Assembly: GCA_028689145.1 (NCBI GenBank)
Contig: JAQTWT010000008.1
Span: 1-64,000 of the forward strand
DNA length: 64,000 nucleotides
From: Gallionella sp.
GTDB lineage: Bacteria; Pseudomonadota; Gammaproteobacteria; Burkholderiales; Gallionellaceae
Direction: 5' to 3'
Below are positions 1 through 19,740 of this stretch, one piece after another (position 1 is the first letter of the stretch; every line of letters begins with the position of its first letter). The notes under the pieces were generated by a model. It saw only the letters and a program-made list of their open reading frames with translations. It did not search any database and was not told the DNA's origin. A program made the translations under genes and the position numbers.

Positions 1-2152
1 TGCACCAGTGAGCGCTACTGCACCAGTGAGCGCTACTGCACCAGTGAGCGCTACTGCACCAGTGAGCGCTACTGCACCAGTGAGCACCACTGCACCAGTG
101 AGCACCACTGCTCCAGTGAGCACCACGGCTCCAGTGAGCACCACCGCTCCGGTCAGCACCACCGCTCCGGTCAGCACTACGGCCCCAGTCAGCACCACTG
201 CCCCAGTCAGCACCACAGCACCAGTCAGCACCACAGCACCAGTGAGCACCACGGCTCCGGTGAGCACCACGGCACCAGTCAGCACGACTGCTCCAGTGAG
301 CACCACAGCACCGGTGAGCACCACTGCTCCGGTCAGCACTACTGCTCCAGTGAGCACGACTGCTCCGGTCAGCACTACTGCTCCAGTGAGCACTACTGCT
401 CCAGTGAGCACCACAGCACCGGTGAGCACCACGGCACCAGTCAGCACGACTGCTCCAGTGAGCACGACTGCTCCGGTGAGCACTACTGCTCCGGTGAGCA
501 CGACTGCTCCAGTGAGCACGACTGCTCCAGTGAGCACGACTGCTCCAGTGAGCACGACTGCTCCGGTGAGCACCACTGCTCCGGTCAGCACTACTGCTCC
601 AGTGAGCACGACTGCTCCGGTCAGCACTACTGCTCCAGTGAGCACTACTGCTCCAGTGAGCACTACTGCTCCAGTGAGCACCACAGCACCGGTGAGCACC
701 ACGGCACCAGTCAGCACGACTGCTCCAGTGAGCACGACTGCTCCGGTGAGCACGACTGCTCCGGTGAGCACCACTGCTCCGGTGAGCACGACTGCTCCGG
801 TGAGCACTACTGCTCCGGTGAGCACGACTGCTCCAGTGAGCACGACTGCTCCGGTGAGCACCACTGCTCCGGTCAGCACTACTGCTCCAGTGAGCACGAC
901 TGCTCCGGTCAGCACTACTGCTCCAGTGAGCACGACTGCTCCAGTGAGCACTACTGCTCCAGTGAGCACCACAGCACCGGTGAGCACCACGGCACCAGTC
1001 AGCACGACTGCTCCAGTGAGCACGACTGCTCCGGTGAGCACGACTGCTCCGGTGAGCACGACTGCTCCAGTGAGCACGACTGCTCCAGTGAGCACGACTG
1101 CTCCAGTGAGCACGACTGCTCCAGTGAGCACGACTGCTCCGGTGAGCACGACTGCTCCGGTGAGCACCACTGCTCCGGTCAGCACGACTGCTCCGGTCAG
1201 CACCACGGCTCCGGTGAGCACTACTGCTCCGGTGAGCACCACGGCTCCGGTGAGCACCACGGCTCCGGTGAGCACTACTGCTCCGGTGAGCACCACGGCT
1301 CCAGTGAGCACCACGGCTCCGGTGAGCACCACGGCTCCGGTCAGCACCACGGCCCCGGTTAGTACGACTGCACCGTCCACGACGACATCTGATGATGATG
1401 ACGATTCGGACAGCGACTCTGATTCTGATTCTGATTCGGATAGCGACTCGGACTCTGATTCGGACAGCGACTCTGATTCGGATAGCGACTCTGACTCGGA
1501 TAGCGACAGTGATTCTGACAGCGACAGCGACTCGGATAGCGACAGTGATTCTGACAGCGACAGTGATTCGGATAGCGACAGTGATTCGGATAGCGACAGT
1601 GATTCGGATAGCGACAGTGATTCGGATAGCGACAGTGATTCGGATAGCGACAGTGACTCGGACAGCGACTCTGATTCGGACAGCGACTCTGACTCGGATA
1701 GCGACAGTGATTCTGACAGCGACTCGGACAGCGACAGCGATTCGGATAGCGACTCTGATTCGGATAGCGGCGTTGATCTCACTGGAACCAGCAGAACTGA
1801 TAATCTGAGCGGTGGCAGTGGTGACGACACGATCCACGGTGGTAATGGCAACGATACGATCGATGGAAATGGTGGCAGTGACCAACTATATGGTGATGGC
1901 GGCGACGATACATTTACTTTCGGTGATATCTCCGGTCATTCGACGGTTGATGGCGGCGGTGGAAGCTGGACCGATACGATTGAAATCGATTTGGGCGGTG
2001 GCGGGTCATCCTCCGGCGGCTGGACGGTCGAGATTGAAGGGGATCATCAAACTGATGGTGACAGTATCGCTGGAGATAATATGTCCGGCACTATCACTAC
2101 CGATGACGGTTCAACAATCGATTTCAGCAATATCGATAGAATCGAGTGGTAA
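1..2152 (+). CDS. Giant repetitive RTX-like surface protein, 5' end outside window
   Basis: The frame is open from the first bases and position 8 is only an in-repeat GTG codon, so the true start lies upstream of the window. The visible part has three zones: 76 hexapeptide units of the type V-S-T-T-A-P (the first four V-S-A-T-A-P), a Ser-Asp tract of 127 residues, and a C-terminal domain of about 130 residues with RTX-like GGxGxDxx nonapeptides ([20 protein letters not shown]) and Gly-rich, acidic sequence. Known of such families: RTX repeats bind calcium after export by type I secretion, and Ser-Asp or Thr-Pro tracts act as stalks of adhesins. Inference: a cell-surface or biofilm adhesin. 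It resembles the complete adhesin at 33942-35561, which has an N-terminal retention module; that end cannot be seen here. No type I secretion genes lie in the window. Confidence 0.85.
8..1375 (+). repeat. 18-bp tandem repeat array, 76 units (hexapeptide VSTTAP)
   Basis: Seventy-six uninterrupted 18-bp units follow each other in frame. Amino acids are almost invariant while third codon positions vary (GTG/GTC, ACC/ACG/ACT, GCT/GCA/GCC, CCG/CCA). A higher-order pattern is present: one distinctive variant string recurs at about 411, 681 and 969, which is 270 and 288 bp apart (15 and 16 units). This suggests segmental duplication by unequal recombination with selection on the peptide. Confidence 0.95.
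1388..1768 (+). repeat. Ser-Asp dipeptide repeat tract (127 residues)
   Basis: In-frame run of TCx/AGC/AGT serine codons alternating with GAT/GAC, starting with a short poly-Asp stretch. It codes for a strongly acidic, probably extended segment between the VSTTAP array and the RTX-like domain. The layout recalls the Sdr/Clf stalk of staphylococcal adhesins by composition only; homology is not implied. Confidence 0.95.
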
Positions 2153-2178
2153 TCCGGTAGGCTTTGTGGCATAACTGA

Positions 2179-2209
2179 ACGGGGTTCCTGCGGAGGAACC
2201 CCGTTTTTT
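2179..2209 (+). terminator. Intrinsic terminator after the repetitive surface protein
   Basis: A perfect 10-bp stem (ACGGGGTTCC with GGAACCCCGT), a 6-base loop and a run of six T lie 27 bp after the stop codon. This is a strong rho-independent terminator and separates the adhesin from the next gene. Confidence 0.9.
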
Positions 2210-2236
2210 ATAGGCTGGCCTATTTAGTTAAACATC

Positions 2237-4075
2237 ATGAATGTCGATAAATCACAATACGGCTATCCCGAGAAACACCTTCCCGAGTTTCTGGCGAGTC
2301 CCGCTGATATTATTTTTCTGCACAAGCTGAATAAAGCGATACATGACATCGCTTGCGATGAAGCCGAAATAGATCGGTGTTTTTCTGAATCTCAATTCCC
2401 GCAACACGTTGAGCGCCTTATTTTGGTGTTATATGCGCCGGGTCATAAGCGCATTCTGGTCAGCCGTGCTGGAATCCGAGAGCAAATTAGGTTCTCGGTG
2501 GTTTTGCGGCGCTTGCTTGACCATCCACGATGCGCGCAATTGGCATCACTGCCTTTCCGGTTACAAATGGATTTCGTGCTGGAGCCATCGTCGCCAATGG
2601 ACTACTACACGGTGGGAAGGGAGCATGCGGGCAATCTCCATTTCGAGATCGGTGTCGACGGTTTGATGTTTCGTGGGATGGATGGCAAACAGCATATTTT
2701 CCCGCCCGGCGATGCTTATGTGCGTTCCGTCATGTCGATAGGTCAATTGCGCGAGTATCTGAACAATGTCCACGGCGAGGATTATTTGCGGCAAGCCGAA
2801 TTCAAGCGCTTCCGTTCAGAAAGCTATATTTCCGGTGAAGAATCCTGGCTACGCCTGTATCGGGGGTATCCGGTTGTGGGTGCCTTGACGAAGCGCAAGA
2901 TCGGGGATGCCATCGAACTGGCTATCGCTCATATCCGGTACACCCAAGAGGAAGATGGTAAATTTCTTTATTACTACGATGCCGCATTGGACTCACGCTG
3001 GGATCATGAACATCCCAAAAGAAACCCCACCAAAAACCCGTATTACAACATCCTGCGGCATTGTGGCGGTGCACTGACCTGTATTTACCATGAAAAATAC
3101 TACCGCGATGGCAAAACGCTGGACAATGTTCGCCGTGCCATCGACTACCTGATCGCCCAAGCCAGAGTGCAGGATTATGGTGGACGGAAAGGTGCCTACA
3201 TCTACAGCGAGAAGAAATCAAAACTGGGCGGGACCGGAATCGCACTTTATTTGCTGGCAGATTATCAGATTGTGACGGGCGATGACCGTTACCGGGAATG
3301 GGCGGATAGGTTCGCTTGGCATCTACTCAACCAGATTACCGACAACGGTGAGTTCATTTACTACAATATCTATCTCGACAAGCCGGTGACCGAGAAGGAA
3401 AATCAAAAGCATTTTTCTTTTTATTACCCGGGCGAGGCGGTTTGCGGGCTGGCGAAATATCTGCATCTGCTCGACACCGAAAACCGCAGAGAGTTTTTTG
3501 AAAAACTCCGCAAAGCGTTGGAGTTTCTGCTGATCGTTCGCCCGGTGACCCGAGCCAGCGAATACAGCGCGGTACCTTCGGACGGCTGGCTGATGATGGG
3601 GATCATGGAGCTGTGGGATTTTGAAGAAATGCGCGATCCGATATATGCGGATTTTGTTTTTTCGGATGCCCGGAAAATGATAGATCACATGTACAAGGTA
3701 ACCGATGCGCCCTACCCCGATTATGCCGGGGCGTTCTACTACAACTACAGCGATTATCCCTACGCGGACGGAGCGCGCTGTGAAGGCTTGCTGGGCGCAT
3801 ACGAGTTGGCCGTCAAGATGGAAGAGCACGAGACGGCTCGCCAGTTATGGCCTGCGTTACGCCTTGCAGCTTGGGCTGTAATGCACTTGGTCAACACCGA
3901 AGATTCAATTTATTTTGCAAAAAATCCTGCTATTGCACTGGGCGGCATCCGCTTCAAATACACGCGACAATGGTTCCGCATCGATACTATCCAGCATGTC
4001 GCCTCTTTTTTTGCCAAGATGCTACCTCACTGGGATGCGGCGGAAAAACTGTCGGAGCAGCGGGCGAGCCAGTGA
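2237..4075 (+). CDS. Alpha/alpha-toroid (glycosidase/epimerase-like) protein of the CapA/Mur cluster
   Basis: 612 residues, no signal peptide or membrane segment, so probably cytoplasmic. Residues 1 to about 200 form a domain I do not recognise. Residues about 215-600 have the periodic helical pattern of six-hairpin/alpha-alpha-toroid enzymes: helices ending in Gly/Tyr-rich turns (LGGTGIALYLLADY, FYYPGEAVCGLAKYL, SDGWLMMGIMELWD, ARCEGLLGAYELAVKM) with many Tyr, Trp and acidic residues that could line a sugar pocket. Such folds occur in glycoside hydrolases, lyases and the C5-epimerase family; the exact reaction cannot be read. It converges with the transglutaminase-like gene with only 23 bp between them, so it belongs physically to the 2237-13227 cluster. 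Translation start ATG at 2237 has only a weak ribosome site. Confidence 0.65.
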   Translation: MNVDKSQYGYPEKHLPEFLASPADIIFLHKLNKAIHDIACDEAEIDRCFSESQFPQHVERLILVLYAPGHKRILVSRAGIREQIRFSVVLRRLLDHPRCAQLASLPFRLQMDFVLEPSSPMDYYTVGREHAGNLHFEIGVDGLMFRGMDGKQHIFPPGDAYVRSVMSIGQLREYLNNVHGEDYLRQAEFKRFRSESYISGEESWLRLYRGYPVVGALTKRKIGDAIELAIAHIRYTQEEDGKFLYYYDAALDSRWDHEHPKRNPTKNPYYNILRHCGGALTCIYHEKYYRDGKTLDNVRRAIDYLIAQARVQDYGGRKGAYIYSEKKSKLGGTGIALYLLADYQIVTGDDRYREWADRFAWHLLNQITDNGEFIYYNIYLDKPVTEKENQKHFSFYYPGEAVCGLAKYLHLLDTENRREFFEKLRKALEFLLIVRPVTRASEYSAVPSDGWLMMGIMELWDFEEMRDPIYADFVFSDARKMIDHMYKVTDAPYPDYAGAFYYNYSDYPYADGARCEGLLGAYELAVKMEEHETARQLWPALRLAAWAVMHLVNTEDSIYFAKNPAIALGGIRFKYTRQWFRIDTIQHVASFFAKMLPHWDAAEKLSEQRASQ

Positions 4076-4098
4076 GCAAGCCGGGATAAGCGTCATTC

Positions 4099-5037
4099 TT
4101 AATTCGGCAAGCCAGTGTTGCTGATGCTCCAGAAGATATCGACAGTAACGTGTTGATCGCGGTAAGCCCTGGACGTACCGGGAATACTGTTTGACCAAGT
4201 CCAGCTATCACCGCGCTTTAGAATGACCTTGGTAGCCGCGCCGTAGCCGAACCCGTAGCCAAGTGAAGGCTGCAAGGCCAAGTTGGGATCGACGGGTATC
4301 CAGGCTCCATCAAGGTAGGCTTCGGCGGCATGATGGTTGGGTAGAGTGAAAGCCCCGGATTCCGCAAAATTGAACTCTGAAGTCATCCTTGCAGGAATCC
4401 CAAGGGCGCGGGACAGCGCAACAAAAATAGCGGCATATTCCGTGCAGTCGCCGGTGCCGCTGTGCAGGGCAAACAGGGCTCCCCTATTTTCCATCTGTTT
4501 GTAGCGAAGACTGTTTTGAGGATACTGAAATGCCGCCAGCAACTGCTGCAGAGGCGTAGTGTGCGCTGCCCTGATCTGTTGGGCGATGGTCTGGATTTCG
4601 GTTGAATCCGACTCAACGTATTCGCTCGGGGCCAGAAAGTTTGAACTGGCTTTGGCGGACCGGGTGATAGGTTTTTGTTTGTGGTCGAACGGGGTCACTC
4701 GCAGATGGAAGTCGATTTTTCTGATCAATTGTGAATGGGGCGGGATGTCCCATTTGAACTGCATGTAGCTGTCCACGCCATTTTTGTGCGGGCGGATGGC
4801 GTAACTGTCCGGGTAAGGGTATGCAATGCGTAACAGCCGTTGTTGTGCATGGTCATCAGCGGGAATCGTCAGGCGTTGGATATATGAATTTAACGGAACA
4901 TCGCCCGTATTTTTCACGTTGAGGGTGGCACTGAGGGTGACAAGCCGGTCTTTGGTGGTATCTGCGGCAGCTTGGAAAGGTGTCGCTAACAGACTGGCGC
5001 AGAACCAGAGCAAGAGGCCCAATGTGCGAAATTTCAT
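4099..5037 (-). CDS. Secreted transglutaminase-like (cysteine protease fold) protein
   Basis: 312 residues with an N-terminal signal peptide (about residues 1-25, cleaved after a FQAAA-type site). A beta-rich N-terminal half is followed by a transglutaminase core: GDCTEYAAIFVALSRALGIP carries the nucleophile at about Cys198, HHAAEAYLDGAWIPVDP carries His236 and the Asp near 250, so the Cys-His-Asp triad is complete. Bacterial members of this superfamily are mostly peptidases or amidases in the periplasm or at the surface. The start codon is 2 bp from the stop of the upstream 1436-residue fusion, so the two are almost certainly co-transcribed. This suggests that it processes the amide-containing product of that fusion (inference). 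It is not obviously LapG. Confidence 0.8.
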   Translation of the reverse strand: MKFRTLGLLLWFCASLLATPFQAAADTTKDRLVTLSATLNVKNTGDVPLNSYIQRLTIPADDHAQQRLLRIAYPYPDSYAIRPHKNGVDSYMQFKWDIPPHSQLIRKIDFHLRVTPFDHKQKPITRSAKASSNFLAPSEYVESDSTEIQTIAQQIRAAHTTPLQQLLAAFQYPQNSLRYKQMENRGALFALHSGTGDCTEYAAIFVALSRALGIPARMTSEFNFAESGAFTLPNHHAAEAYLDGAWIPVDPNLALQPSLGYGFGYGAATKVILKRGDSWTWSNSIPGTSRAYRDQHVTVDIFWSISNTGLPN

Positions 5038-5039
5038 AC

Positions 5040-8000
5040 CTATCTCAGGTCGTGTTGGTTGAGTAGCGTTAGTCCCGATAAAACGCTGGCATCGGTTTGG
5101 ACATTTGGTTTTATGGCGGTGATGGGCTGTATCGTCTGTGGGCGTGCGGGCATCGGGGCGGTTGGGGCAGATTTGACTTCCAATGTGCGCAAATAGTGGC
5201 CGACTTCATCGACTTCACCTTTGACAAACAGCAGGTCACCCGGCTTGATTTCATCAAGCAATGCATTGATGAGTTCTTCTGTTTGATGTGTGCTGGCATC
5301 GCGCCGGTCATAGCTTGGAAAGCGCCGCACTACGGTGGATTTGTTTTTCAACGCTGCATAGGTTGCTTCGGCATACTGACCGACGAAAAAAATGCGGTCG
5401 AAACCTGCCGCGTCAACCCATTCGGCCAGACGGGTATGTTCGGCTGTGGACTCATCACCGAGAAATATCATTTGTCCGATCATCGCCACCTTTCGCCCGA
5501 CGGCAACTGGAGGTAACAGGCGTTGAGCTGTTTTCAAGAAAGACTGGTAGCTCAATACAGAAGCCCGCGAAGCGTTGTCGATTAACCCCACTGTGCCGCC
5601 CTGTATCGCAATTTGTCGGACAACCCCTTGTGACTCGTAGGGGCGGTAGTCGTGAAATGCATCCGCCGCCCGCTTTATATCGGCTTCCAGATGGCTGGCG
5701 GCCAGCAGCACCGATACCGAGGCGAGCGGGGCGTGGTCAAAAATCAGGGGGACACGGTAACTGACCCGGACACCTTGAATCTCTGCGGTGATGTCCCATC
5801 CATTATTCTCGAAGCGGCGATCCAGCAAGCGCCCATCGCAACCGGGAGTTGAACCAAACAATAACAGCGGTACTTTGCGCCGACCGAGAACAGCTTTGCG
5901 CACAGCCTCAAAATTCTTGCTGTCCGCATTCAAAATGCCGAAACCATCCTCGGTAACACCGAGAGCAATGTCGGCTTTGCCTTCGATGACTGCCTGCTGG
6001 CTGCCGTGGTAATTGATGTGCTCGTTGCCCACTTCTGTTATGACGAAGAGGTGCGGTTTGACGAACAGGCTGCGCCGCTTGCAACGGCCTGGATGGGTGC
6101 CTGCCGCCTCGAAGATGGCGATGCGGTCTTTTTTGCGTATCGAGGCAAAGCTGGCATGGATCGAATGATCCAGATTGGAGCTGTTGAGCACCGCGTGGGT
6201 CGAAATCTGCGGTGCCATAACGTGATGGAGCGCGCATTTGAAGCCGGTTTTACCTTCCGTGCCGGTAACGATCACACGTTTGCCGGTATAAAGATGGTCA
6301 CGGACATGGGCACCCAGCGCTTTCAATGCAAGAAGCACATGATCAACCTGCAGTAGCGGCATATCCGTCGGCAAGCCTTCGGCAGAATTTGGCACCACGG
6401 CTGCCACGGCACCCTTCTTAAAAGCTTTGGTTACATTAAGGACGCTGCCGGAGGTGAAGGAATGATCGTTAATATTGGTATTGGTTGAAAAGTACAGGTT
6501 GCCCTGCGTCCCTTCAGCCAAATATGGCCTGTTGAAACTCATGCCTGTTATAAATATATCGGAGGAAACATTCCGCCATTTGCCTTTTGTGACTTGCGCG
6601 ATGGTTTTTATATCGAGCAACAGCGGGTTATCCTGGGTGGCCAGCGCAGCCGGACGAGAATAATATTGCGGCAATGATGCGGTCAATAGTGATGCCCGTT
6701 TCATCCATAGGCGAATCCATTTCACTGCCAGTGTTTCCTTACCAGCCGAGTTGATGGTTTCGAGCCGTTCAGGAAACTGCGCCCAATTCAACGCTCGTTC
6801 CACATGTGCTATCCAGAGGGCGATATGCAATATCGGGATCAGGGTAGGCACGGGCAAATTTGTTGCCGCACTCCAGGGTTGCAGGTAGGCTTTGGCGACC
6901 TCATCACGTTCAGTGAGCCGGGTTTCGTGTTGCAGCCAATACGGGTGATAAACCAAGAGGAGGCTGCAAAATGGAAATGTGAGACTTGCGTCACCCCAAT
7001 CCAGAAAAACCTCGCCGGATTCTCCATGCAGAATGTTGTCATCATGAAGATCACCATGACAAAGAGCGGTTGACCAGGTATGTTTTTGCAGGCTCTGGCA
7101 GCAGTTGTCGAAGAGCGGGATCATTTCCAGTGCTATTTTTTGTTCTTCGCGGCTCAATCCGGTCGGTTGATTCAGTGAAATGGCCTTGTCGTCGTGAAGC
7201 AGTCCGGCAAGTTGCGCGGGCAATGTCGTTATCCGTCGATCGGGCACACTCAAATCAAGCCAGTGCCGTATATGGCGGCAGGACTCGATCTGAATTTCTG
7301 CAAATTTTGAAAGCATCGACTTCCGTTCGATGGAGTCGATCTCTTTTTCGCGATTTTTTCTGATGGGGCGGCCGTAGTCGGGAAGGAGCATCCAAGGCAT
7401 GGCGGCGCATATCGCCAGCGGTTTGGGCATCCTGTCCGGGAACAGATGCGACAGTGACACCAGCAGACGCGGCTCATGAGAGCCAGTCACGTCCCCGGCC
7501 TTGAAATAGACGAGACCTTGTTCTGTCAAAACACTGGCGATGTACCCCCATGGCGTATTGCGGACTACTGTTACCTCGTCTGATTTGAGCGAGAGTCCCC
7601 GTTCCGTCAGCGCGCGAATGATCCAAGGTTTTGCCTGCTCATTCCAAAAGTGTGCGGGTGCATCTTCCCAAGGCTGCTTTGCCCTCGGGTTGTCGTTGTG
7701 GGGCAGTCGTAGCGTCGTGGAGATTCCCGCCACGCCCTTGGGTGCAGTTTTGCTGACAACCACTGCACCGAGCAGGACCATGCCGTCGACAATGCGTTCA
7801 TCGACTGTATCCATTTTTAAAGAAAGCCGTTTTTCTTGGTCAATCAGTTGCCAGTAAAGATTGTAACTGCCTTCGGCAAGCACTTTTCCCGGGCGAACCA
7901 GAACCCGGTCGCAGATGATTTCATTTCGGTTCCAGCGGGCAGGAGGATGAATGCCTTCCGCCACCGGATGTGTGTAGACAAATGCGATCTCCCCCGATGA

Positions 8001-9350
8001 CGACAATCCCGTCAGGCGGGCTTCGACACGGCTGGGCATCGGCGGGGCGGAAGCTCGGAAGTTCACCTCGCAGACAAATCCGCACCCTGGCTGCACGGGA
8101 GATGCAAAACGTGTGCCGAGAATTTCAAGTTCCGGATTGACAGTGACCCGTGTTGCCCATTGCGTGCCGGGGGGGAGTTTGGTGCAAACCAGATTGCTTT
8201 TGAGCTGGCGATACCACGCCGGAAGCTTGGGGCGAGTGGCTTTAGGCGAAACTTTACGAAGGATATCATTCTGTTGTACATGTGAGGTGCGAGGCGTTGG
8301 CGAACATCGCAGGCGCAAACCTTCAGTAGTTTTCTCCAGAGTGGTCGATGGGTTTAGGTCAATACTGAGTCGAACAATCAGTTCACGGATGCGCGAGGCG
8401 TTTTCACCTGTTGCCAGATGAGCTCGCCCTGCCGTGAGGTGGACGGGATGAATGATGAGTTGCCGGACACCTTGTGCATCGATTTCCAATTCAAACAGGG
8501 CGGAGTCCGCCATCCGGTTCTGGGTTACACGATCGAAGATCAGAGTGCCCATGTCGTACACAATCGGCCTGCCATCATGCAGTTCCACTCCTTGCAGGAT
8601 ATGCGCCGAATGGCCGAGCACCGCATCCGCGCCGAGATCAATCAAACCTCGCGCGACTTCCCGAAATTCGGAAGTGGGTGCCTCCTGCCAGTTTGCGCCC
8701 CAGTGTGGGGTGACGATGACGACATCGGCGTGAGCGCGGGCAGCGGAAATCGATTCGGCAACGGTGTTCAGCAGACTCCTGATCGGGGCGTGGAAAATCC
8801 CTGGCGTATTTAGGCCAGCTTGCATGGCAGGAGTTTCCGTTTCAATACCTATGAACGCAATGGTCAGTCCATTGATTTTGGTGTAGCAGGGTAAGGCAGC
8901 TTGCGTAACATTACGCCCGGAGCCGAAATGCAGAAAGCCGCTGGCATCAAGTATTTCGCATTGCTGTAGCAATGCCGCCTTGCCATAGTCCATGGCGTGA
9001 TTGTTGGCGGTGGTGACACACTTGATGTTCGCTGCGCCCAAGACATCGAGCATCTCGGGTAGGGCATGGTAGTAGTATGGTTGCCGCCCACCCTTGTCAA
9101 TGAAATCGCCCAATGTGCTGACGCAGGTTTCCAAGTTAACCAGCGCCAGGTCGGCGGTTTCAAGTAATTGGGCTACACCGGCAAACGGCCAGCCCGAGCC
9201 ATGCAGCGCGGCCCATCCAGGCATTTGACGACCAAGCATGACATCGCCACCGGCAATCAGCCGGACAGTCGTTTTGTTGACAGTCTTGCCGACATCATCC
9301 GCCTCCAGAATCAAAGGTTGTTCTTGAGTGGATAGGGCTTCATTCGTCAT
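5040..9350 (-). CDS. CapA / beta-sandwich / APH-like kinase / MurF-like ligase fusion (1436 aa)
   Basis: Four parts are visible. Residues about 28-330 are a PGA_cap (CapA/PgsA) metallophosphatase-like domain: GGDVMLGR at 34-41, NNHAMDYG near 115, PHWGANW and GHSAHILQG. Residues about 400-535 look like a beta-sandwich (RWNRNEIICDRV followed by an EGSYNLYWQLID strand). Residues about 560-890 are an aminoglycoside-phosphotransferase-like kinase with HGDLHDDN at 765-772 and a VFLDWGD metal site. Residues about 905-1390 are a MurF-like ligase, including the N-terminal UDP-binding-type domain and the P-loop VTGTEGKTGF at 1028-1037. CapA and Mur-type ligase (CapB/PgsB) are the partners of poly-gamma-glutamate synthesis, here fused with a kinase. 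There is no signal peptide or membrane anchor, unlike usual CapA proteins, so the enzyme appears cytoplasmic. Inference: phosphorylation and amide ligation of a cell-envelope precursor. Confidence 0.85.
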   Translation of the reverse strand: MTNEALSTQEQPLILEADDVGKTVNKTTVRLIAGGDVMLGRQMPGWAALHGSGWPFAGVAQLLETADLALVNLETCVSTLGDFIDKGGRQPYYYHALPEMLDVLGAANIKCVTTANNHAMDYGKAALLQQCEILDASGFLHFGSGRNVTQAALPCYTKINGLTIAFIGIETETPAMQAGLNTPGIFHAPIRSLLNTVAESISAARAHADVVIVTPHWGANWQEAPTSEFREVARGLIDLGADAVLGHSAHILQGVELHDGRPIVYDMGTLIFDRVTQNRMADSALFELEIDAQGVRQLIIHPVHLTAGRAHLATGENASRIRELIVRLSIDLNPSTTLEKTTEGLRLRCSPTPRTSHVQQNDILRKVSPKATRPKLPAWYRQLKSNLVCTKLPPGTQWATRVTVNPELEILGTRFASPVQPGCGFVCEVNFRASAPPMPSRVEARLTGLSSSGEIAFVYTHPVAEGIHPPARWNRNEIICDRVLVRPGKVLAEGSYNLYWQLIDQEKRLSLKMDTVDERIVDGMVLLGAVVVSKTAPKGVAGISTTLRLPHNDNPRAKQPWEDAPAHFWNEQAKPWIIRALTERGLSLKSDEVTVVRNTPWGYIASVLTEQGLVYFKAGDVTGSHEPRLLVSLSHLFPDRMPKPLAICAAMPWMLLPDYGRPIRKNREKEIDSIERKSMLSKFAEIQIESCRHIRHWLDLSVPDRRITTLPAQLAGLLHDDKAISLNQPTGLSREEQKIALEMIPLFDNCCQSLQKHTWSTALCHGDLHDDNILHGESGEVFLDWGDASLTFPFCSLLLVYHPYWLQHETRLTERDEVAKAYLQPWSAATNLPVPTLIPILHIALWIAHVERALNWAQFPERLETINSAGKETLAVKWIRLWMKRASLLTASLPQYYSRPAALATQDNPLLLDIKTIAQVTKGKWRNVSSDIFITGMSFNRPYLAEGTQGNLYFSTNTNINDHSFTSGSVLNVTKAFKKGAVAAVVPNSAEGLPTDMPLLQVDHVLLALKALGAHVRDHLYTGKRVIVTGTEGKTGFKCALHHVMAPQISTHAVLNSSNLDHSIHASFASIRKKDRIAIFEAAGTHPGRCKRRSLFVKPHLFVITEVGNEHINYHGSQQAVIEGKADIALGVTEDGFGILNADSKNFEAVRKAVLGRRKVPLLLFGSTPGCDGRLLDRRFENNGWDITAEIQGVRVSYRVPLIFDHAPLASVSVLLAASHLEADIKRAADAFHDYRPYESQGVVRQIAIQGGTVGLIDNASRASVLSYQSFLKTAQRLLPPVAVGRKVAMIGQMIFLGDESTAEHTRLAEWVDAAGFDRIFFVGQYAEATYAALKNKSTVVRRFPSYDRRDASTHQTEELINALLDEIKPGDLLFVKGEVDEVGHYLRTLEVKSAPTAPMPARPQTIQPITAIKPNVQTDASVLSGLTLLNQHDLR

Positions 9351-9611
9351 CAGGAAATTTTATCCAGTGGTTGCTAATAGTGCTGTTGCATACAATTTAT
9401 CAGCATAAGCAAAATCATGGAAGTCTAAAATGCGTGCTCTGCAAAGAGCAAAACCGGATTGCGGCATAATTGATGTAGGCTGCATAATGCGCACGTTGAG
9501 AGATACGGAATTCAGGGGTAGACCAATGCTGATTAGTTACACGCGTTACTTGGGCTAATAGATGAATTTAATGAAAGTCCTGATTGAATCAGGGTAGGAG
9601 AACCAAGTATC
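9351..9611. other. Divergent intergenic region between the two kinase-fusion genes
   Basis: 261 bp between the starts of the CapA/Mur fusion (-) and the nucleotidyltransferase/kinase gene (+). It is AT-richer than its flanks and must hold both promoters. I could not identify a convincing pair of sigma-70 boxes or an operator. Only the ribosome site GGAG at 9597-9600, 11 bases before the ATG at 9612, is clear. Confidence 0.6.
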
Positions 9612-12065
9612 ATGGGAGTCATTAAAAAAATCCTGTACCGCGGCAATTTTCTCGGCAAACAGCGCCATTGCCACTTTTTCCTCGATATGGAGGAAAACAT
9701 CCATATTCATTATCGCGACCTGCGCATCGAGTTGAGCCGGGGCGAATTCGAGGATATCTGCGATGCATTCCGCAAGCAGTCGCAGGAATTGCAAGCCATC
9801 ATCAACGAGAAAAATTATCAGGACGGCACACTGCCCAACGCCAATCAGGATGATGTGCGTATCTGGACCGAGTCTCTGCTCAAGCATGATGTCAAATATC
9901 ATCCGCAGCGTTTTTCGCTGGAGGAGTGCAGCGACGGATTTCATTTCCATTACCGCAATTACAAGCTGCTGTTCGATGAGGCCGAATTCCGGCAAGTTGC
10001 GAAGTTGTTCAAGAATCTCGATGTGGATAGCCCGTGTGCCGCCAGTTACGCCGAGGTGCTCGAACTGCTGGAGGGCAACGATGTTGATTTCGTGCTGGAT
10101 GCGGGCAATGTGCCGGGCAAAGTATTGGCTATCGCCGTTGCCGCTTATCACTTTCCAAAAATCCGGGAAATTTTCAAGCTGATAGGCTTCACGCTGGATG
10201 CGCAGAAATATGAGCATCGCTATCAGGGCCCGATGCTTCTGGTAGTGGCCAAAGTTAACAACCAACTTTCCGCATTCGATTACCGGCGTATCCGGGGCAA
10301 CAAGGAGACGGAAAGGTTGGTCGATTTTCTGTCCCGCAATGCCGCCGCTATCGACCCGGATGCGCTGAATAGAATCAAATGCCAGGTGCTTGATCTGTAT
10401 TTCTCCCTGAGCTCCGGGCAGAAATTGAATGTGGAGATTGATCAGCAATCGTGGCTTTATTCGCCGGCCAACCGGCAAGTCATTTTTCCCTATAGTGTTT
10501 CCGCACAAGGCGGCAAGAGTGAAGCTGCGGCACTCTACAAGACTTGGGGTGACTTTTTGGTAAGTCTAAAACTATGGTTTGTGAAACCCACCAAGCAGAG
10601 TTTTCCGCCCGCCGAGCAAGCGTTATTGAAGCAACAGGTGATCGACACGATCAGAAATGAAGTCGCCGCCTGCGGTGCGGTCGACAGGATTTACTTGATG
10701 GGGTCGGCGTTGCGCGGCGAAATGGGGCGTTACCTTGCGCCATTCGTCAACGGCCCGCAGGTCAAACTGGGATCGGATGTGGATATTTTGGTGGAGATCA
10801 ATCCCGCTCGCGAAGCGGATATTCCCGCGCACTGGACTTTAATCAGGCAGAACGAGCCGTCCAACCGTTGCGCCATCTACCACATCAAGCAAATTCCCAT
10901 GGCGGGCGGGATCGACGAATGGGCGAAACTGTATCCCCATTTACCGCTCATCCAGCATTTGATCGACGCGTATGTATTCTTCCCCTCGCGCGGATACCGG
11001 CAGGAAAAAGATGCTTTCATGGGCAAGTTCGATGCCGAACTGTTTTATGACCGGACTCGCGACGGTGCGGTTAACCGCACCGGGGAAGAACAGCAGATTG
11101 CCCGGCGGATATCCGAGTTGCATGCCTTTCCGCAGGTGACGGTCGAAAAAATGAATGTGGCCGCGATGAATGTGGCTACCGAGAATGCGCTGTACAAGGT
11201 GTTTGCCGGTGAGCACGACTACATACTCAAACTTTTCAAAGTGTCCGGAAACTACAAGCGCGGCCGTATTCCCGAGCACACCGCCTATGAAGAAAAACTG
11301 GTGACACAGCTTAAGCAACGGGGTGTTGTGACCGCAGGAATCATTCCCGCTACGCAAGGCGGGGATGCGACCATCGAAGGTTTTCCGGCTTTGCTGTTCG
11401 AGCGAATTTGCGGCGAGGCGCAGCTGAAGCCGGAGTACCCGCTGGACAAGGTATGTGCCGCGCTGGCACTCATCCACCGGGTGCAAATTGAACGCCCGCT
11501 GGAATTGGCCGGAGATTTCTCGTTCGAGGATATTTGTGACATTTGGCTGCCGATGTTTCGGGTGTATTTGAACGATCACACGCATGGCGCAGAGATCGCC
11601 GCTGCATTGTCCGGAATGGCTCCGTTGTCCGAACGCTGCGGTTCCGCCGAATACCGTAAGGCGTTGTACGCTGCCGGGCCAACCGTTCATAATCACGGCG
11701 ATGTCACCCCGAAGAACGTGATCACCAATCAGCACGGCGAGGCGGTTTTCTTTGATTTCAACAATGCTTATTTCGGCCCGCGCATGGCTGATGTGCTGGA
11801 CGGTGCTTTTGAATTCTCGCTGGCCGAACAATATATCCACCTTGCCGATTTTGTCCGTTTTGACGCGTTCATTTCCCAATATTCCGCCAGCAATCCGCTC
11901 ACGGACGGGGAAACCGGCAAGCTGCTGCAATGGATCGAATTGACCGGTCTGATCAAATTTACCCGGGAAATTCGCGCACTGCTGGAACATCCGGCGGATG
12001 AACTGCGCCGGAAACGTGCTCTGGCGATTGCAGAATTCGTCCTGTCCCGCACGAATACACATTGA
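9612..12065 (+). CDS. Nucleotidyltransferase / APH-like kinase fusion (817 aa)
   Basis: Residues about 20-135 contain two copies of a short module (HIHYRDLRIELSRGEFEDI and FHFHYRNYKLLFDEAEFRQV), each read as beta-beta-helix, which I cannot assign. Residues about 345-470 are a nucleotidyltransferase of the polymerase-beta superfamily: MGSALRGE near 363 and GSDVDILVEI at 387-396 give the GS and DxD catalytic motifs. Residues about 500-817 are an aminoglycoside-phosphotransferase-like kinase: NHGDVTPKNV near 694-703 and VFFDFNNAYFG. It is divergent from the CapA/kinase/Mur fusion, and both large proteins share the kinase module. Inference: the two act on the same small precursor, one activating and one ligating. 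No signal peptide. Function not established. Confidence 0.75.
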   Translation: MGVIKKILYRGNFLGKQRHCHFFLDMEENIHIHYRDLRIELSRGEFEDICDAFRKQSQELQAIINEKNYQDGTLPNANQDDVRIWTESLLKHDVKYHPQRFSLEECSDGFHFHYRNYKLLFDEAEFRQVAKLFKNLDVDSPCAASYAEVLELLEGNDVDFVLDAGNVPGKVLAIAVAAYHFPKIREIFKLIGFTLDAQKYEHRYQGPMLLVVAKVNNQLSAFDYRRIRGNKETERLVDFLSRNAAAIDPDALNRIKCQVLDLYFSLSSGQKLNVEIDQQSWLYSPANRQVIFPYSVSAQGGKSEAAALYKTWGDFLVSLKLWFVKPTKQSFPPAEQALLKQQVIDTIRNEVAACGAVDRIYLMGSALRGEMGRYLAPFVNGPQVKLGSDVDILVEINPAREADIPAHWTLIRQNEPSNRCAIYHIKQIPMAGGIDEWAKLYPHLPLIQHLIDAYVFFPSRGYRQEKDAFMGKFDAELFYDRTRDGAVNRTGEEQQIARRISELHAFPQVTVEKMNVAAMNVATENALYKVFAGEHDYILKLFKVSGNYKRGRIPEHTAYEEKLVTQLKQRGVVTAGIIPATQGGDATIEGFPALLFERICGEAQLKPEYPLDKVCAALALIHRVQIERPLELAGDFSFEDICDIWLPMFRVYLNDHTHGAEIAAALSGMAPLSERCGSAEYRKALYAAGPTVHNHGDVTPKNVITNQHGEAVFFDFNNAYFGPRMADVLDGAFEFSLAEQYIHLADFVRFDAFISQYSASNPLTDGETGKLLQWIELTGLIKFTREIRALLEHPADELRRKRALAIAEFVLSRTNTH

Positions 12066-12078
12066 TTGTCTTTTTGCG

Positions 12079-13227
12079 ATGAGTAGGAAATTCCTTGCGG
12101 TTATGCTGGCATTGGCGCTGTGCTTCCCCGCTGGAGCGTTCGCCGAAACGATAGGCATACGTTTTATCGTCAGCAATGATCTCGGGCGTACTGCGGCACA
12201 GCAGCAACTTACCCGCGCAACACTGGAAAAATATGTGGCCGGGCTAAATGACCGCTACCGGAATAGTCAGGTGGTTCTCCATGCCGAAATCGTGCAGATC
12301 GAATTTGTCCGGATTGAAGCGGTGGACGACATACGGATCATCGACGACATGGCGCACGAGCGCAACGGGTTCGAAGCCATGTTCCGGCGTGCAGATGAAT
12401 TCGGTGCCGATTTTACCGTTGCCATGCCCAGCAAACTGCTGATGCAGGGCAAGCCGGGTTGCGGCCGTGCTGCCGCGGTAAACCAGTCGGTTGCGGCGAT
12501 ATCCACGCCGCGCAAGGCTTTTGCAGTGGTCAATTTTGTGTGCGGTGCACATACTCTGGCGCACGAGTTGGGACATCTGATGGGTTTGAACCACGGCACG
12601 CTGGTCGATGCCTGCAATCCGAAAATGGGACACACCTCGGCCATCGCTCCCTATGCCAACGGTTACGCAGATGGGAACTGCGATAGCAAGCCGCAGCCCG
12701 GGGAGTTCGGCGATATCATGGTGGGCGGTCACATGCGCGAAGTGATCGGCAACGACAAAGGCAATCTGCCCATTTTTTCCAACCCGCGCCTACACGATGA
12801 ACGCTGCGGTAAAAAACAGGCTTGCGGTGATCCGCTCACAGGCGATGCGGCTCGTGCGCTGAATGAAAACGCGCATTATTATGCATCCCACGAAGAGCCG
12901 GATGTGCACACGTTGCATTATGGAAGTGCTGAACTGAGCGATTGCATCAATACAAAATATCGCGGGATGGAGATCGCGGAATTGCAAGAACTGGCCTGTG
13001 CAAATTACAGTATAGGTAACCTTGCGGGCATGGAGAAATTGACCGCATTGCGGCGCATTGACTTGTCGGAAAACCGGCTCGCGGACATCGCATCGCTGGC
13101 GGAATTATTGCCCGCTCGCGTCGAGAAAATAGACCTGATGGGGAACAACCGGATATCGTGCGAATCCCTCGACAGACTAGATAATAAATTTCCCGGTAAG
13201 GTGTTGCGCCCATCTTTGTGCTTGTGA
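12079..13227 (+). CDS. Secreted metzincin zinc protease with C-terminal leucine-rich repeats
   Basis: The ATG at 12079 was chosen because it gives a clean signal peptide (MSRKFLAVMLALALCFPAGA); the open frame continues further upstream inside the preceding gene. The extended zinc motif HELGHLMGLNH lies at residues 162-172 and is followed by a Met-turn (GDIMVGG), the mark of the metzincin clan. Residues about 295-365 carry two to three leucine-rich-repeat-like turns (LTALRRIDLSENRLADIASL, VEKIDLMGNNRIS). Several cysteines suggest disulfides and a periplasmic or extracellular location. It starts 13 bp after the nucleotidyltransferase/kinase gene, on the same strand, so it is likely its operon partner. 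Substrate unknown. Confidence 0.8.
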   Translation: MSRKFLAVMLALALCFPAGAFAETIGIRFIVSNDLGRTAAQQQLTRATLEKYVAGLNDRYRNSQVVLHAEIVQIEFVRIEAVDDIRIIDDMAHERNGFEAMFRRADEFGADFTVAMPSKLLMQGKPGCGRAAAVNQSVAAISTPRKAFAVVNFVCGAHTLAHELGHLMGLNHGTLVDACNPKMGHTSAIAPYANGYADGNCDSKPQPGEFGDIMVGGHMREVIGNDKGNLPIFSNPRLHDERCGKKQACGDPLTGDAARALNENAHYYASHEEPDVHTLHYGSAELSDCINTKYRGMEIAELQELACANYSIGNLAGMEKLTALRRIDLSENRLADIASLAELLPARVEKIDLMGNNRISCESLDRLDNKFPGKVLRPSLCL

Positions 13228-13350
13228 TGATGTGTAGTGTTGGATACGCGAAACGGGAATGTCGCTTGTTGCCTGTCACCCCTGCAATGCCCTCCTGTAG
13301 ATCGCCCTGCATTTACCATCCTGATTCGCTGATTGGGTAGAATGGCGCGT

Positions 13351-14115
13351 ATGCCTACCCTGAAAATCGCCACTTACAATATCCATAAAGGACTTTCTGC
13401 GTTCAATCGCCGTGTGGTATTGCACGAGTTGCGCGAGCGTTTGCACGAGTTGAATGCCGATATCGTGTTTTTGCAGGAAGTGCAGGGCGAGCATACGCGC
13501 CATGCCGAGCGCTATGACAACTATCATGACGGCGCGCAGCACGAGTTCATCGCGGAAGCGGTATGGCCGCATTCGGTGTATGGGAAAAATTCGGTATATG
13601 AAGCCGGGCACCACGGCAACGCGATACTCAGCCGCTTCCCGATTCTTGAATCCTTGAACATGGATATTTCCGCACACCGTTTTGAAAGTCGCGGACTGCT
13701 GCACTGCGAGATTGAGCTGGCCGGAAAGATTCCGGTACATTGTCTGTGCGCGCATTTCGGATTATTCGCCAAAGGCCGCCGCGTGCAGACCAAGTCACTG
13801 ATCGAGTATGTGCACAATGCTATACCGCCCGGTGCGCCGCTGATCGTCGCGGGAGATTTCAATGACTGGGGCAACCGGATGAGCCGTTCCCTTGCCGGTG
13901 AACTGGGTATGCATGACGTGTTCCATCTGCATAACGGCAGTCACGCGCGCAGCTTTCCGGCCAGATTGCCACTGTTGCGACTGGATCGGATTTACGTGCG
14001 CGGTTTCAGCGTGCTGCACTGCGATGTGCATGCCGGTGGCGCGTGGCGGCGGCTGTCCGATCATGCCGCGCTTTCGGCGCAGCTGAAACGGCATGATCCG
14101 GTGAAGATGCCATGA
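13351..14115 (+). CDS. Endonuclease/exonuclease/phosphatase family protein (YbhP-like)
   Basis: About 254 residues of the EEP fold: IATYNIHKG at the N-terminus, the LQEVQ metal-binding Glu, GNAILSRFPI, VAGDFNDW and the C-terminal LSDHAALSA histidine motif. These are the active-site motifs of Mg-dependent phosphodiesterases. It overlaps clsB by four bases, the same pairing as ybhP-clsB in Escherichia coli, which suggests a role linked to phospholipid metabolism (inference). ATG codons at 13342 and 13351 are both possible; the GGGTAG at 13335-13340 is spaced better for 13351. Confidence 0.85.
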   Translation: MPTLKIATYNIHKGLSAFNRRVVLHELRERLHELNADIVFLQEVQGEHTRHAERYDNYHDGAQHEFIAEAVWPHSVYGKNSVYEAGHHGNAILSRFPILESLNMDISAHRFESRGLLHCEIELAGKIPVHCLCAHFGLFAKGRRVQTKSLIEYVHNAIPPGAPLIVAGDFNDWGNRMSRSLAGELGMHDVFHLHNGSHARSFPARLPLLRLDRIYVRGFSVLHCDVHAGGAWRRLSDHAALSAQLKRHDPVKMP

Positions 14116-15293
14116 CTGGCAGCCATACCATTGCCGGGAACCGGCTCACGCTGCTGCAGAACGGCACGGCGTTCTTTCCGCAATTGTGCGCGGATGTTGA
14201 TGCCGCACAGCATTCGATTTATCTGGAAACTTACATTTTTGCCGCGGATCAAACCGGGCGCATGGTTGCCGACGCGTTGCAACGGGCAGCTGCACGCGGG
14301 GTATCGGTACGTCTGCTGTTGGACGGTTTCGGTTCGGCAGAGTTGCCGCAGCAATGGGTGGACGAGCTGCGCGCGGCGGAAGTCGAGGTGCAATGGTACC
14401 GGCGTGAAATTTCGCCCTTTACTTTTCGCCGCAGTCGCAAGCGTCGCCTGCTGAGGCTGCACCGCAAACTGGCAGTAATCGACGGCGAAGTCGCTTTCGT
14501 CGGCGGCATCAATATCATCAACGATATTCCGGAACACAGTGATTTTACTATGCCGCGCCTCGACTATGCCGTGCGGGTGCAGGGTGCCGTGTCCGGTGAG
14601 ATTCACTCGGCCATGCGGCATCTGTGGGGCACGGTGTCTTGGGCTAGTCTGCGCAGGCGCGGCAAGGAAATCGAGCGGTTTATTTTGGAGAGGGCGAAGC
14701 ATGGCGCGGTGCCGGAGATTGCTTTCTTAGTGCGCGATAATTTGCGCCATCGCCGCGATATCGAACGTGCCTATCTGAAAGCACTTGCCGGTGCGCGGCG
14801 CGAAATTATCATCGCCAATGCTTACTTTTTGCCCGGACGCCGTTTTCGCCGCGCCTTGTTTCATGCCGCGCGGCGCGGGGTGCGCGTTGTGCTGTTGCTG
14901 CAGGGAAAAATGGAATACCGCCTGCAGCACTACGCCACGCATGCGCTTTATGACCGGCTGCTTGCGGCCGGTATCGAGATCCACGAATATCAGGCCAGCT
15001 ATCTGCACGCCAAGGTTGCCGTGGTGGACGGGCAATGGGCGACAGTGGGTTCGTCGAATATCGACCCGTTTAGTTTGTTGCTGGCGCGCGAGGCCAATCT
15101 GGTCATTCTGGATAGCGGCTTTGCCGGGGAATTGCGCGCGAATTTGCTTGCCGCGATCAGCGACGGTGCGGTGCATATTGGCGATGAATATGGCAGGACA
15201 CGCAATTTTTTTGGTCGTCTGATCGCACGCCTGAGTTATGGTGCGGTGCGCCTGTTGGTCGGTCTGGCGGGATATCGCAAGGGCGGTTCGTAA
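14112..15293 (+). CDS. clsB: Cardiolipin synthase B, phospholipase D family
   Basis: 393 residues with two HKD motifs: HRKLAVIDGEVAFVGGIN starting at about residue 117 and HAKVAVVDGQWATVGSSN at about 299. Both histidines are needed for the phosphatidyl transfer that makes cardiolipin in this family. The length and absence of N-terminal membrane helices fit ClsB rather than ClsA, and the preceding overlapping EEP gene repeats the ybhP-clsB arrangement. Likely a membrane-associated enzyme of the inner leaflet. Confidence 0.9.
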   Translation: MTGSHTIAGNRLTLLQNGTAFFPQLCADVDAAQHSIYLETYIFAADQTGRMVADALQRAAARGVSVRLLLDGFGSAELPQQWVDELRAAEVEVQWYRREISPFTFRRSRKRRLLRLHRKLAVIDGEVAFVGGINIINDIPEHSDFTMPRLDYAVRVQGAVSGEIHSAMRHLWGTVSWASLRRRGKEIERFILERAKHGAVPEIAFLVRDNLRHRRDIERAYLKALAGARREIIIANAYFLPGRRFRRALFHAARRGVRVVLLLQGKMEYRLQHYATHALYDRLLAAGIEIHEYQASYLHAKVAVVDGQWATVGSSNIDPFSLLLAREANLVILDSGFAGELRANLLAAISDGAVHIGDEYGRTRNFFGRLIARLSYGAVRLLVGLAGYRKGGS

Positions 15294-15369
15294 GTGGTTG
15301 CATCGGATATCAGGCAGTCTTTCGGTTGTTCTATCGCAATAACTATTTAGTCAGCGCGATGTGCGCGGC

Positions 15370-15375
15370 TATAAT
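15370..15375 (+). promoter_or_regulatory. Possible -10 box upstream of the Atm1-type exporter
   Basis: A perfect TATAAT lies 32 bp before the ATG at 15408. The -35 region (TTAGTC around 15347) is poor, so this is a tentative promoter. Confidence 0.35.
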
Positions 15376-15407
15376 TACCGGCTAACATTACCCATCGCTA
15401 CCGAATA

Positions 15408-17303: not shown

Positions 17304-17313
17304 TTTATATCAA
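17300..17313. promoter_or_regulatory. FNR/Anr-type binding site upstream of pbpG
   Basis: TTGATTTATATCAA is a perfect match to the FNR/Anr consensus TTGAT-N4-ATCAA. It overlaps the last codons of the ABC exporter and lies 52-65 bp before the pbpG GTG. A TATACT -10-like box is at 17329-17334. The centre would be near -35 of that promoter, which fits repression better than class II activation. Confidence 0.5.
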
Positions 17314-17364
17314 TATTCATGTATGCTATATACTGAATAAGTAGTTCGATAGGGGAGGTTGTTT

Positions 17365-18261
17365 GTGAAAAAAATACTGCTGATTTGCCTGTTGTCCGGG
17401 CAAATGCTGGTGGCTCATGCGGAAGAAAAGGCCGCACAGCGAACTGCATATAAACCGCATGCCAACGCAATATCACATACCGGTTCCGCACCCAAACTGC
17501 ATTCCTCGATCGCATTAATTTACGACCAGCAGACCCAGCTTCCGCTGTACACCAAAAATTCCAATGCAGTGGCTCCCATAGCCTCCATCACCAAACTAAT
17601 GACGGCGATGGTGGTGCTGGATGCGCAACAGCCGTTGAATGAAAAGATCACGATCAGTGTGGCGGATATTGATACCCTCAAAGGCACCCGTTCGCGTCTG
17701 CGTATCGGCATGACACTGACACGCAGCGAGTTGCTCAGGCTGGCATTGATGGCCTCGGAAAACCGCGCGGCCTCTGCTCTGGCGCGCAATTATCCTGGCG
17801 GATACTCCGCCGCAATCGCGGCGATGAACAGCAAGGCGCGCGATCTCAACATGCCCAACACGCGCTTTCTCGACCCTACCGGATTAAACAGCGACAACAT
17901 TTCGACTGCATATGATCTGGTCAAAATGGTCGCGGCGGCAAGCAACTATCCTTTGATTCACCGATACACTACTTTGGCATCGCATTCAGTGGACAGTCAG
18001 GGCAGGCGCGGGCGTAAGTTGCGTTTCACCAACACCAACCCGCTGGTAAGAAATGCATCATGGGATATCGGCGTAAGCAAGACCGGCTACATCAGCGAAG
18101 CCGGGCGTTGTCTGGTCATGGAGGCGGTAATCAACCAGCGTTCAGTGATTATCGTACTGCTCGATTCATGGGGTAAACGCACCCGTATCGGCGATGCCAA
18201 CCGCATCAAAAAGTGGATGGAAAGCAGCAATATGCGCAACCGCACCACGGCACGCAGCTGA
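17365..18261 (+). CDS. pbpG: D-alanyl-D-alanine endopeptidase (PBP7 type)
   Basis: 298 residues with a signal peptide and the three active-site motifs of serine penicillin-binding proteins: SITK at 74-77, SEN at 131-133 and KTG at 239-241. The small size and absence of the C-terminal amphipathic anchor of PBP5/6 point to the PBP7/8 endopeptidase, which trims peptidoglycan cross-links in the periplasm. The GTG at 17365 is preferred because AGGGGAGG at 17351-17358 is ideally placed; a TTG at 17359 is closer than usual. Confidence 0.88.
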   Translation: MKKILLICLLSGQMLVAHAEEKAAQRTAYKPHANAISHTGSAPKLHSSIALIYDQQTQLPLYTKNSNAVAPIASITKLMTAMVVLDAQQPLNEKITISVADIDTLKGTRSRLRIGMTLTRSELLRLALMASENRAASALARNYPGGYSAAIAAMNSKARDLNMPNTRFLDPTGLNSDNISTAYDLVKMVAAASNYPLIHRYTTLASHSVDSQGRRGRKLRFTNTNPLVRNASWDIGVSKTGYISEAGRCLVMEAVINQRSVIIVLLDSWGKRTRIGDANRIKKWMESSNMRNRTTARS

Positions 18262-18269
18262 TTCTCGAC

Positions 18270-18292
18270 AAGGGATGCGTCGCATCCCTTTT
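18270..18292 (+). terminator. Intrinsic terminator after pbpG
   Basis: An 8-bp stem AAGGGATG/CATCCCTT with a 5-base loop is followed by four T, 9 bp after the pbpG stop. The T tract is short, so strength is moderate. The rest of the gap to 18495 shows nothing else. Confidence 0.7.
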
Positions 18293-18495
18293 AGTTACAC
18301 CACGCCAGTTGGTATCGAATGCAGTAAAGTCCAACGTGGCAAACTCTAAACAATCCTTCCTATCGCCTTCCCGGCAGAAAAGGCTACGCTTCATTTAGCC
18401 AATCTTGCCAAATAATACAGGTACTACGTTGCCTAAAACTTTTGTCCAACGACACACAGCGGGCATTGAACTCAAATGAGATTTCTGTGAATCAT

Positions 18496-19670: not shown

Positions 19671-19740
19671 TTGACGATCAATTTACCATGTGTTTTTTTG
19701 CGCCGATATGCAGCCTGCACCGCAATTTGGTTCAGTTGTT

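Follow-up and report, generated by a model that had tools for sequence, protein, structure and literature searches.

Long Asp-Ser and Asp-Ala tracts are known in adhesins, and outside the staphylococci no enzyme modifying them was found in the open-licence PubMed Central (PMC) literature searched. In the staphylococcal system carried by SCCmec, the GtfC protein (538 aa) is encoded immediately downstream of pls and is involved with GtfD in glycosylating the SD repeats of Pls, with more biofilm, although CAZy gave no glycosyltransferase prediction for it (PMC5230774, in the part of the article available). According to the available parts of the other articles, SdgA and SdgB put N-acetylglucosamine (GlcNAc) on the Ser-Asp repeats of Sdr/Clf proteins (PMC3794999), the gtfA and gtfB genes adjoin sesJ (PMC7029136), and BapA of Paracoccus denitrificans, a type I secretion system (T1SS) protein, carries 891 Asp-Ala repeats, no modifying enzyme being mentioned for it there (PMC5588039). 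We analyzed a locus at the start of a 64,000-nucleotide stretch of DNA from Gallionella sp. (assembly GCA_028689145.1, contig JAQTWT010000008.1, positions 1 to 64,000; hereafter the window), where the gene of a giant exported repeat protein with an Asp-Ser tract is followed by five genes (2237-13227) encoding an (alpha/alpha)6 toroid of the GtfC family, a secreted transglutaminase-like protein, a fusion of CapA, APH kinase and MurF-like ligase domains, a fusion of nucleotidyltransferase and APH kinase domains (NTase-APH), and a secreted metzincin. By analogy, this block is best read as a Gram-negative variant, equipped with a ligase, of the staphylococcal system for Asp-X tract modification, and as a real, recurring module; it seems on balance to be a module for the post-translational modification of the repeat protein, the tract being the part modified.

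Base 1 of the window is also the first base of contig C15, one of the 23 contigs of a 2.74-Mb genome (G000). Positions 2..2152 (+ strand) encode the 3' part of the repeat protein, the 5' part lying beyond the contig start, with (TTAPVS)n repeats, then (DS)n, then RTX-like repeats and a C-terminal ...IDRIEW. The Asp-Ser dipeptide tract, the putative substrate, occupies 1391..1768 (+) and consists of 126 residues (65 D and 61 S), and the toroid gene (2237..4075, +) starts 84 bp past the end of the repeat gene. In a genome listed under the same genus (G016, L039), the same repeat protein has no strict Asp-X tract and a gap of only 280 bp lies before NTase-APH, whereas in the window, where the DS tract is present, the counterpart of this gap measures 7,459 bp and contains three genes (toroid, transglutaminase-like and CapA/APH/Mur).

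The comparison with the staphylococcal system involves a toroid encoded on a Staphylococcus haemolyticus plasmid (L138), which is 538 aa long, is encoded directly after pls, and shares 69.1% identity with the toroid of S. epidermidis (L145). GtfC is given as 69% identical to an S. epidermidis relative, and the annotation name of the L138 toroid is the one given to the relatives of GtfC (PMC5230774, available part). Since the length, place, annotation and 69% figure agree, the L138 toroid can be taken as the counterpart of GtfC, matched by these features and not by alignment to GtfC itself. The window toroid aligns with it over 442 columns (24% identity, 1.7e-10), and members of the L087 type bridge the two (37.6% identity to L138, and 25.7% over 175 residues to the window). 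As in the Pls-GtfC-GtfD system, a surface or exported protein with Asp-X repeats thus has a GtfC-family toroid encoded next to it; unlike that system as presented in the available part of PMC5230774, the window has an RTX/T1SS-type protein and a CapA/APH/Mur fusion, and no match to glycosyltransferase family 4 (GT4) profiles was obtained in positions 1-20000. GtfC is called a putative glycosyltransferase there, whereas our results point to an (alpha/alpha)6 toroid fold. The SdgA/SdgB pair resembles the system proposed for the window in being dedicated to adhesin Ser-Asp tracts and differs from it in consisting of glycosyltransferases, the abstract of PMC3794999 naming no toroid or Mur ligase.

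The association between toroid and tract was analyzed using a strict rule, under which a tract needs 12 or more successive units, each made up of D and one of S, A, D, G, T, N or E. Of the 40 NTase-APH loci, counting the window, such a tract is present in 4/5 of those with toroid/ligase genes and in none of the 35 others (p 5.5e-5), the figures being 4/5 and 0/10 (p 0.004) when the comparison is restricted to loci in which a repeat protein can be seen. In a sample of the order, toroid profiles matched 6 of 399 genomes, each listed under a different family; the window tract used as a query matched 43, and the six best (4.5e-21 to 1.2e-12), among the best 30 matches for which loci were inspected, are the six toroid genomes. 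The chance of this coincidence is 1.9e-13 if the genomes are treated as independent, and the seventh-best genome (3.6e-12) has an Ala-Glu tract. In a sample of the class, where the toroid occurs in 7/369 genomes at 1e-20 and tract matches in 48/369, the three best tract genomes (G000, G839 and G724) are the three best toroid genomes, after which the tract score drops to 2.4e-9. Three partial toroids (4e-27 to 4e-22) were treated separately, being distant; their stretches carry no tract, and two of these genomes, G561 and G684, have only weak tract matches elsewhere (8e-4 and 1.5e-4). In a sample of the phylum, the toroid was found in 10 of 160 genomes, 8 of them new.

When plasmids were searched, the window toroid gave only weak matches to six Agrobacterium records, and the L087 toroid found 54 records, from which we analyzed 13 loci, with roughly one for each species or lineage. 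A strict tract is present in 11 of these loci, usually within the gene or operon that adjoins the toroid. The host proteins are Pls- or SdrD-like in four staphylococci (L138, L145, L146 and L149), adhesin-like in two enterococci (L147 and L150), and BapA-like or otherwise T1SS-linked in Agrobacterium (two), Rhizobium, Nitratireductor and Sulfitobacter. The exceptions are L141, which has no tract, and an Acinetobacter locus with a tract of only 15 residues in the upstream T1SS-type protein. The tract-bearing proteins (IDKIEW/RTX family, BapA-like, DUF4214, Pls/SdrD-like) are unrelated, and the tract and the toroid are therefore what the loci share; since X is Ser, Ala, Thr, Asp or a mixture of these, Asp is the constant residue. 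That adhesin islands simply gather unrelated genes, with the tract and toroid hitchhiking, would fit the plasmid or island settings in staphylococci and the weaker phylum sample, but the occurrence in six families of the order sample, in two bacterial phyla, beside unrelated host proteins and in toroid-ligase fusions makes this highly improbable.

Profile scans of 28 toroid loci, 21 of which have a tract, provide some indications about the chemistry. Among the 21 tract loci, a Mur-type, cyanophycin-synthetase-like or ATP-grasp ligase is present in 14 and GT4 in two, never both, and neither in five; the window CapA/APH/MurF fusion counts among these amide ligases, which are found at most toroid loci. 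Toroid, CapA and Mur parts form a single protein of about 1,605 residues twice in G431 (L086 and L088), the toroid is fused to Mur at L089, L090, L132, L139, L140 and L181, and to ATP-grasp at L142, and these fusions strongly suggest a joint action of toroid and ligase. In Nitratireductor thuwali (L143), the toroid is paired with a MurF-like protein. Ligases of these three families use ATP to join a carboxylate to an amine. In tracts with about 98-99% Ala at X (L090, L139, L140, L142 and L143) or consisting of poly-Asp (L053), there is almost no Ser or Thr. Since the Ala-rich tracts offer essentially only Asp side chains and the ligases join carboxylates and amines, amide formation on Asp is the simplest common reaction, and we infer from these sequence features that amide bonds are formed on the Asp side chains.

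The same Ala-rich and poly-Asp tracts bear on the possibility that the module only O-glycosylates tract Ser/Thr, the toroid acting on sugars and the Mur ligase making or trimming a sugar precursor. The precedents of GtfC/GtfD (PMC5230774, in part) and SdgA/SdgB (PMC3794999, in part), the GT4 genes beside L087 and L145, and the fact that sugar epimerases and GH76 share the fold of the toroid are in keeping with it. The near absence of Ser/Thr from these tracts and the lack of GT4 in all 16 tract loci having residues other than Ser at X, as well as in the first 20 kb of the window, make it unlikely. The idea that GT4 is confined to pure-Ser tracts was not retained, the difference (2/5 vs 0/16) being not significant alone (p about 0.05, computed with 15 loci in place of 16).

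Cyanophycin synthetase (CphA) carries out amide ligation on poly-Asp using Mur-type and ATP-grasp domains, and cyanophycin is made without the ribosome. Toroid loci likewise have amide ligases, and L053 and L069 encode proteins that score 602, 354 and 339 bits with models of cyanophycin synthetase, in each case under the 877-bit cut-off; L053, which combines poly-Asp with a CphA-like protein, may be said by analogy to resemble cyanophycin on a ribosomal chain. Unlike what occurs with CphA, the Asp chain of the window is protein-encoded, and no ATP-grasp match was obtained among the window proteins scanned, although there is one in the relative at L053. The window shares a CapA-family domain and a Mur-superfamily ligase with CapBCA/PgsBCA, from which it differs in that its ligase is MurF-like, in the fusion order and the neighbors, and in that CapC/PgsC gave no match among the seven proteins of 2237-15293 scanned, as the first-pass annotation of the window, made from its sequence alone, had already stated. 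These likenesses (CphA-like proteins at L053 and L069, CapA as part of the poly-gamma-glutamate toolkit) could mean that toroid, CapA and Mur build a separate cytosolic amino-acid polymer, cyanophycin- or poly-gamma-glutamate-like, attached to the adhesin or exported with it. We regard this as unlikely, as neither CapC nor any other polymer exporter was seen among the seven proteins and the tracts are ribosomal and accompany the toroid even when no ligase is nearby (L133, L145 and L149).

Under the tract-modification reading, the giant protein would be synthesized in the cytosol and its Asp-X dipeptide tract recognized there by the toroid. The Mur-type ligase of the fusion, aided by the CapA domain and the kinase, might then link the side-chain carboxylates of Asp, at the expense of ATP, to an amine, either an amino acid or an amino sugar, and chemical groups would thus be attached to the repeat before export through an exporter, presumably of the T1SS type, whose genes are not on this contig. 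NTase-APH would also act in the cytosol, as another modifier of this family of exported proteins, independently of the tract. More tentatively, these loci may represent ribosomal cyanophycin-like materials, that is, poly-(Asp-X) in exported adhesins, the Asp side chains of which are decorated in the cytosol by GtfC-family toroids and Mur-type/ATP-grasp ligases in both Gram-negative and Gram-positive bacteria. Among the open-licence PMC papers listed by the searches, none connects Mur or ATP-grasp ligases with Asp-X tracts. If the association is functional, it supplies the tract-modifying enzymes, assigns GtfC a fold and places it in a broader family, and suggests that ligases of the peptidoglycan or cyanophycin type act on proteins, which, if true, would make proteins substrates of Mur ligases. 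There would then be one modification logic common to the adhesins of iron-oxidising, plant- or soil-associated and staphylococcal bacteria, and amide-decorated polyaspartate of chosen length could be made genetically.

Several observations weigh against this reading. In the order sample, the tract score of G431 (1.2e-12) barely beats that of the first non-toroid genome (3.6e-12), its two toroid loci have no nearby tract, and its tract lies in a 398-aa frame with a longer open reading frame on the opposite strand; G352 (1.4e-11), which has no toroid match, contains a DS/DA/NA run of 61 residues, within a 215-aa frame whose coding status is unclear. G610 in the class sample has a toroid (1.1e-67) and no tract. 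The phylum sample is clearly weaker: a strict tract was present in the fetched stretch of only one (G932) of the 8 new toroid genomes, the poly-Asp tract of G871 meets only a looser, after-the-fact rule, whole-genome tract searches of three others were positive for G868 (on another contig) and negative for G905 and G947, and the stretches examined near the toroid in G925, G962 and G977 contain no tract. L044, which has the full gene set, has no strict tract in its cut contig. The window toroid is just 23-24% identical to the staphylococcal members, and in strain COL, GtfC is not strictly needed, since GtfD alone gives weakly glycosylated Pls (PMC5230774, available part). No amide ligase is nearby in 7/21 tract loci, two of which have GT4; since GT4 replaces the ligase at two pure (DS)n loci (L087 and L145), the toroid is not tied to amide chemistry. 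For the Mur-type protein of L138 (11558-13288), the match to the Mur middle domain is confined to the latter half of that domain, the S. simulans protein (L146) being complete. Lastly, toroids and Mur proteins are not consistently basic, and tract binding through positive charge was discarded as an explanation, the net charge of the toroids ranging from -10.9 to +12.9. The toroid-tract association is strong, not absolute.

The first-pass annotation had suggested that the five genes form one block, encoding a candidate kinase/nucleotidyltransferase/Mur-ligase pathway for an undescribed envelope polymer; in this reading the repeat protein plays no part. Its gene list and domain assignments agree with the open reading frames and domain matches, and the combination of parts is indeed not described in the literature searched. 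The genes do adjoin, but they form three units, not one operon, namely toroid (+), fusion then transglutaminase (-), and NTase-APH then metzincin (+), and the most telling neighbor, the repeat gene at 2-2152, had been left out. The parts do recur together: L044, a Sulfuricella metagenome-assembled genome, carries a repeat protein, a toroid (69%), a 1378-aa CapA-Mur fusion (48% overall, its middle having no APH match), NTase-APH and a metzincin, and a toroid with an amide-ligase gene lies beside NTase-APH in 4/39 loci plus the window. L044 and the further co-occurrences overturned another idea, that the toroid, transglutaminase and CapA fusion had been inserted by chance into an NTase-APH locus. 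Of the 42 stretches, six have toroid clusters, and the same six have amide-ligase clusters (the window, L042, L044, L053, L069 and L036, the latter without NTase-APH). A single pathway is not what the other genomes indicate, however: NTase-APH is found without toroid/Mur in 35/39 loci, within the stretches covered, many contigs being short; toroid/ligase genes occur without NTase-APH matches in staphylococci, agrobacteria and others; and among 150 relatives NTase-APH is present in 6 and the full CapA/APH/Mur fusion in none. A related-locus search with the fusion gave 0/11 stretches, and a plasmid search with NTase-APH gave no match. NTase-APH and the metzincin make up a distinct set of partners for this family of exported proteins, one that is more widespread (39 loci). 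These counts exclude L084 (same genome as L069) and L030-L034 (G015, G016, G089, G078 and G008), which are L037, L039, L075, L041 and L054 again. An envelope polymer would be consistent with the domain set of the block and with L044, but with the parts separate in other genomes and no dedicated polymer exporter among the genes scanned, it is improbable; as the constant neighbor is the exported repeat protein, the latter is the likelier substrate.

The transglutaminase-like protein (4099..5037, -) has the C-H-D motif positions and an N-terminal signal-like segment. In the fusion (5040..9350, -), CapA spans residues 31-273, APH 751-826 and the MurF-like ligase 973-1380, and the region after CapA has no domain assignment. 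The NCBIfam ligase matches of the fusion are MurF, MurE, MurC, MurD and pMurE, all under cut-off, with no PgsB model among them; the MurF-like part scores 152 bits against a murF cut-off of 288.6, and another MurF-type gene is present at G000:C7. The best solved-structure match of the CapA domain is 8gqb, which we take to be MslH, a lasso-peptide C-terminal Trp epimerase. MslH is, like the window fusion, a CapA-family enzyme, and is named in NCBIfam for its action on a peptide; since the window domain reaches 88 bits against a cut-off of 700, no claim is made that it performs this reaction. Trp is the last residue in 14 of 18 repeat proteins whose ends were compared, but C-terminal Trp epimerization by the CapA domain was dropped as a candidate function, the likeness to MslH being family-wide only and the tract proteins of L053, L069, L087 and L090 not ending in Trp. 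The NTase-APH protein (9612..12065, +), a partner of the exported repeat-protein family, consists of an N-terminal domain, a Pol-beta-type nucleotidyltransferase and an APH kinase; the structure-library matches cover only its residues 487-817, and only residues 215-606 of the toroid. Within its residues 23-46 (window 9612-9750), the stretch FLDMEENIHIHYRDLRIELS...EF is nearly invariant in 38 sequences, with an apparent repeat at about 101-126, and AlphaFold2 confidence is low for this stretch. The metzincin (12079..13227, +) has the motif HELGHLMGLNH and C-terminal leucine-rich repeats. The GC content is even (49-56% throughout 2001-14000) and the stretch has only short imperfect repeats, so that a mobile cassette with terminal repeats was not retained.

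As regards export, the window contig opens inside the repeat gene, and T1SS ABC and HlyD genes are known from upstream of its relatives in L039 and L075; the relative in G016 has a HemolysinCabind match. LapD and LapG are absent from the genes seen at the window locus, and occur at L053, at L069 (by clustering) and beside a second (DS)n protein of the window genome. The latter is encoded at a contig start (L121, G000:C23:2-889), adjoining LapD-, LapG- and TolC-like genes, and the toroid module may serve both (DS)n proteins. A different modifier occupies the same position in G390 (L124), where a GlcNAc-transferase/methyltransferase gene (33-1610) adjoins that of a 2774-aa repeat protein (1701-10025) ending in IDKIQW, with T1SS genes and without toroid or strict Asp-X tract. 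At L187 (G871), positions 324-18372 encode three toroids in tandem, together with a CapA-Mur fusion, a putative kinase, judged from the N-terminal sequence, and a repeat protein with poly-Asp and the C-terminus IDRIEW. Toroid modules seem to bring their own secreted proteases: related small proteins (34%) are encoded at L044 (2626-3423) and L148 (13153-13890), the second having a weak M10/M12-type metalloprotease match, and L036, L042, L069 and L132 share another family, the L132 member of which has a weak peptidase M1 match. At L036, a hexapeptide-repeat protein, a MobA-like NTP transferase and a class-V aminotransferase are encoded (7047-9660) beside a Fic-Mur protein and the toroid, and these extra genes are perhaps involved in phosphonate or amino-sugar supply.

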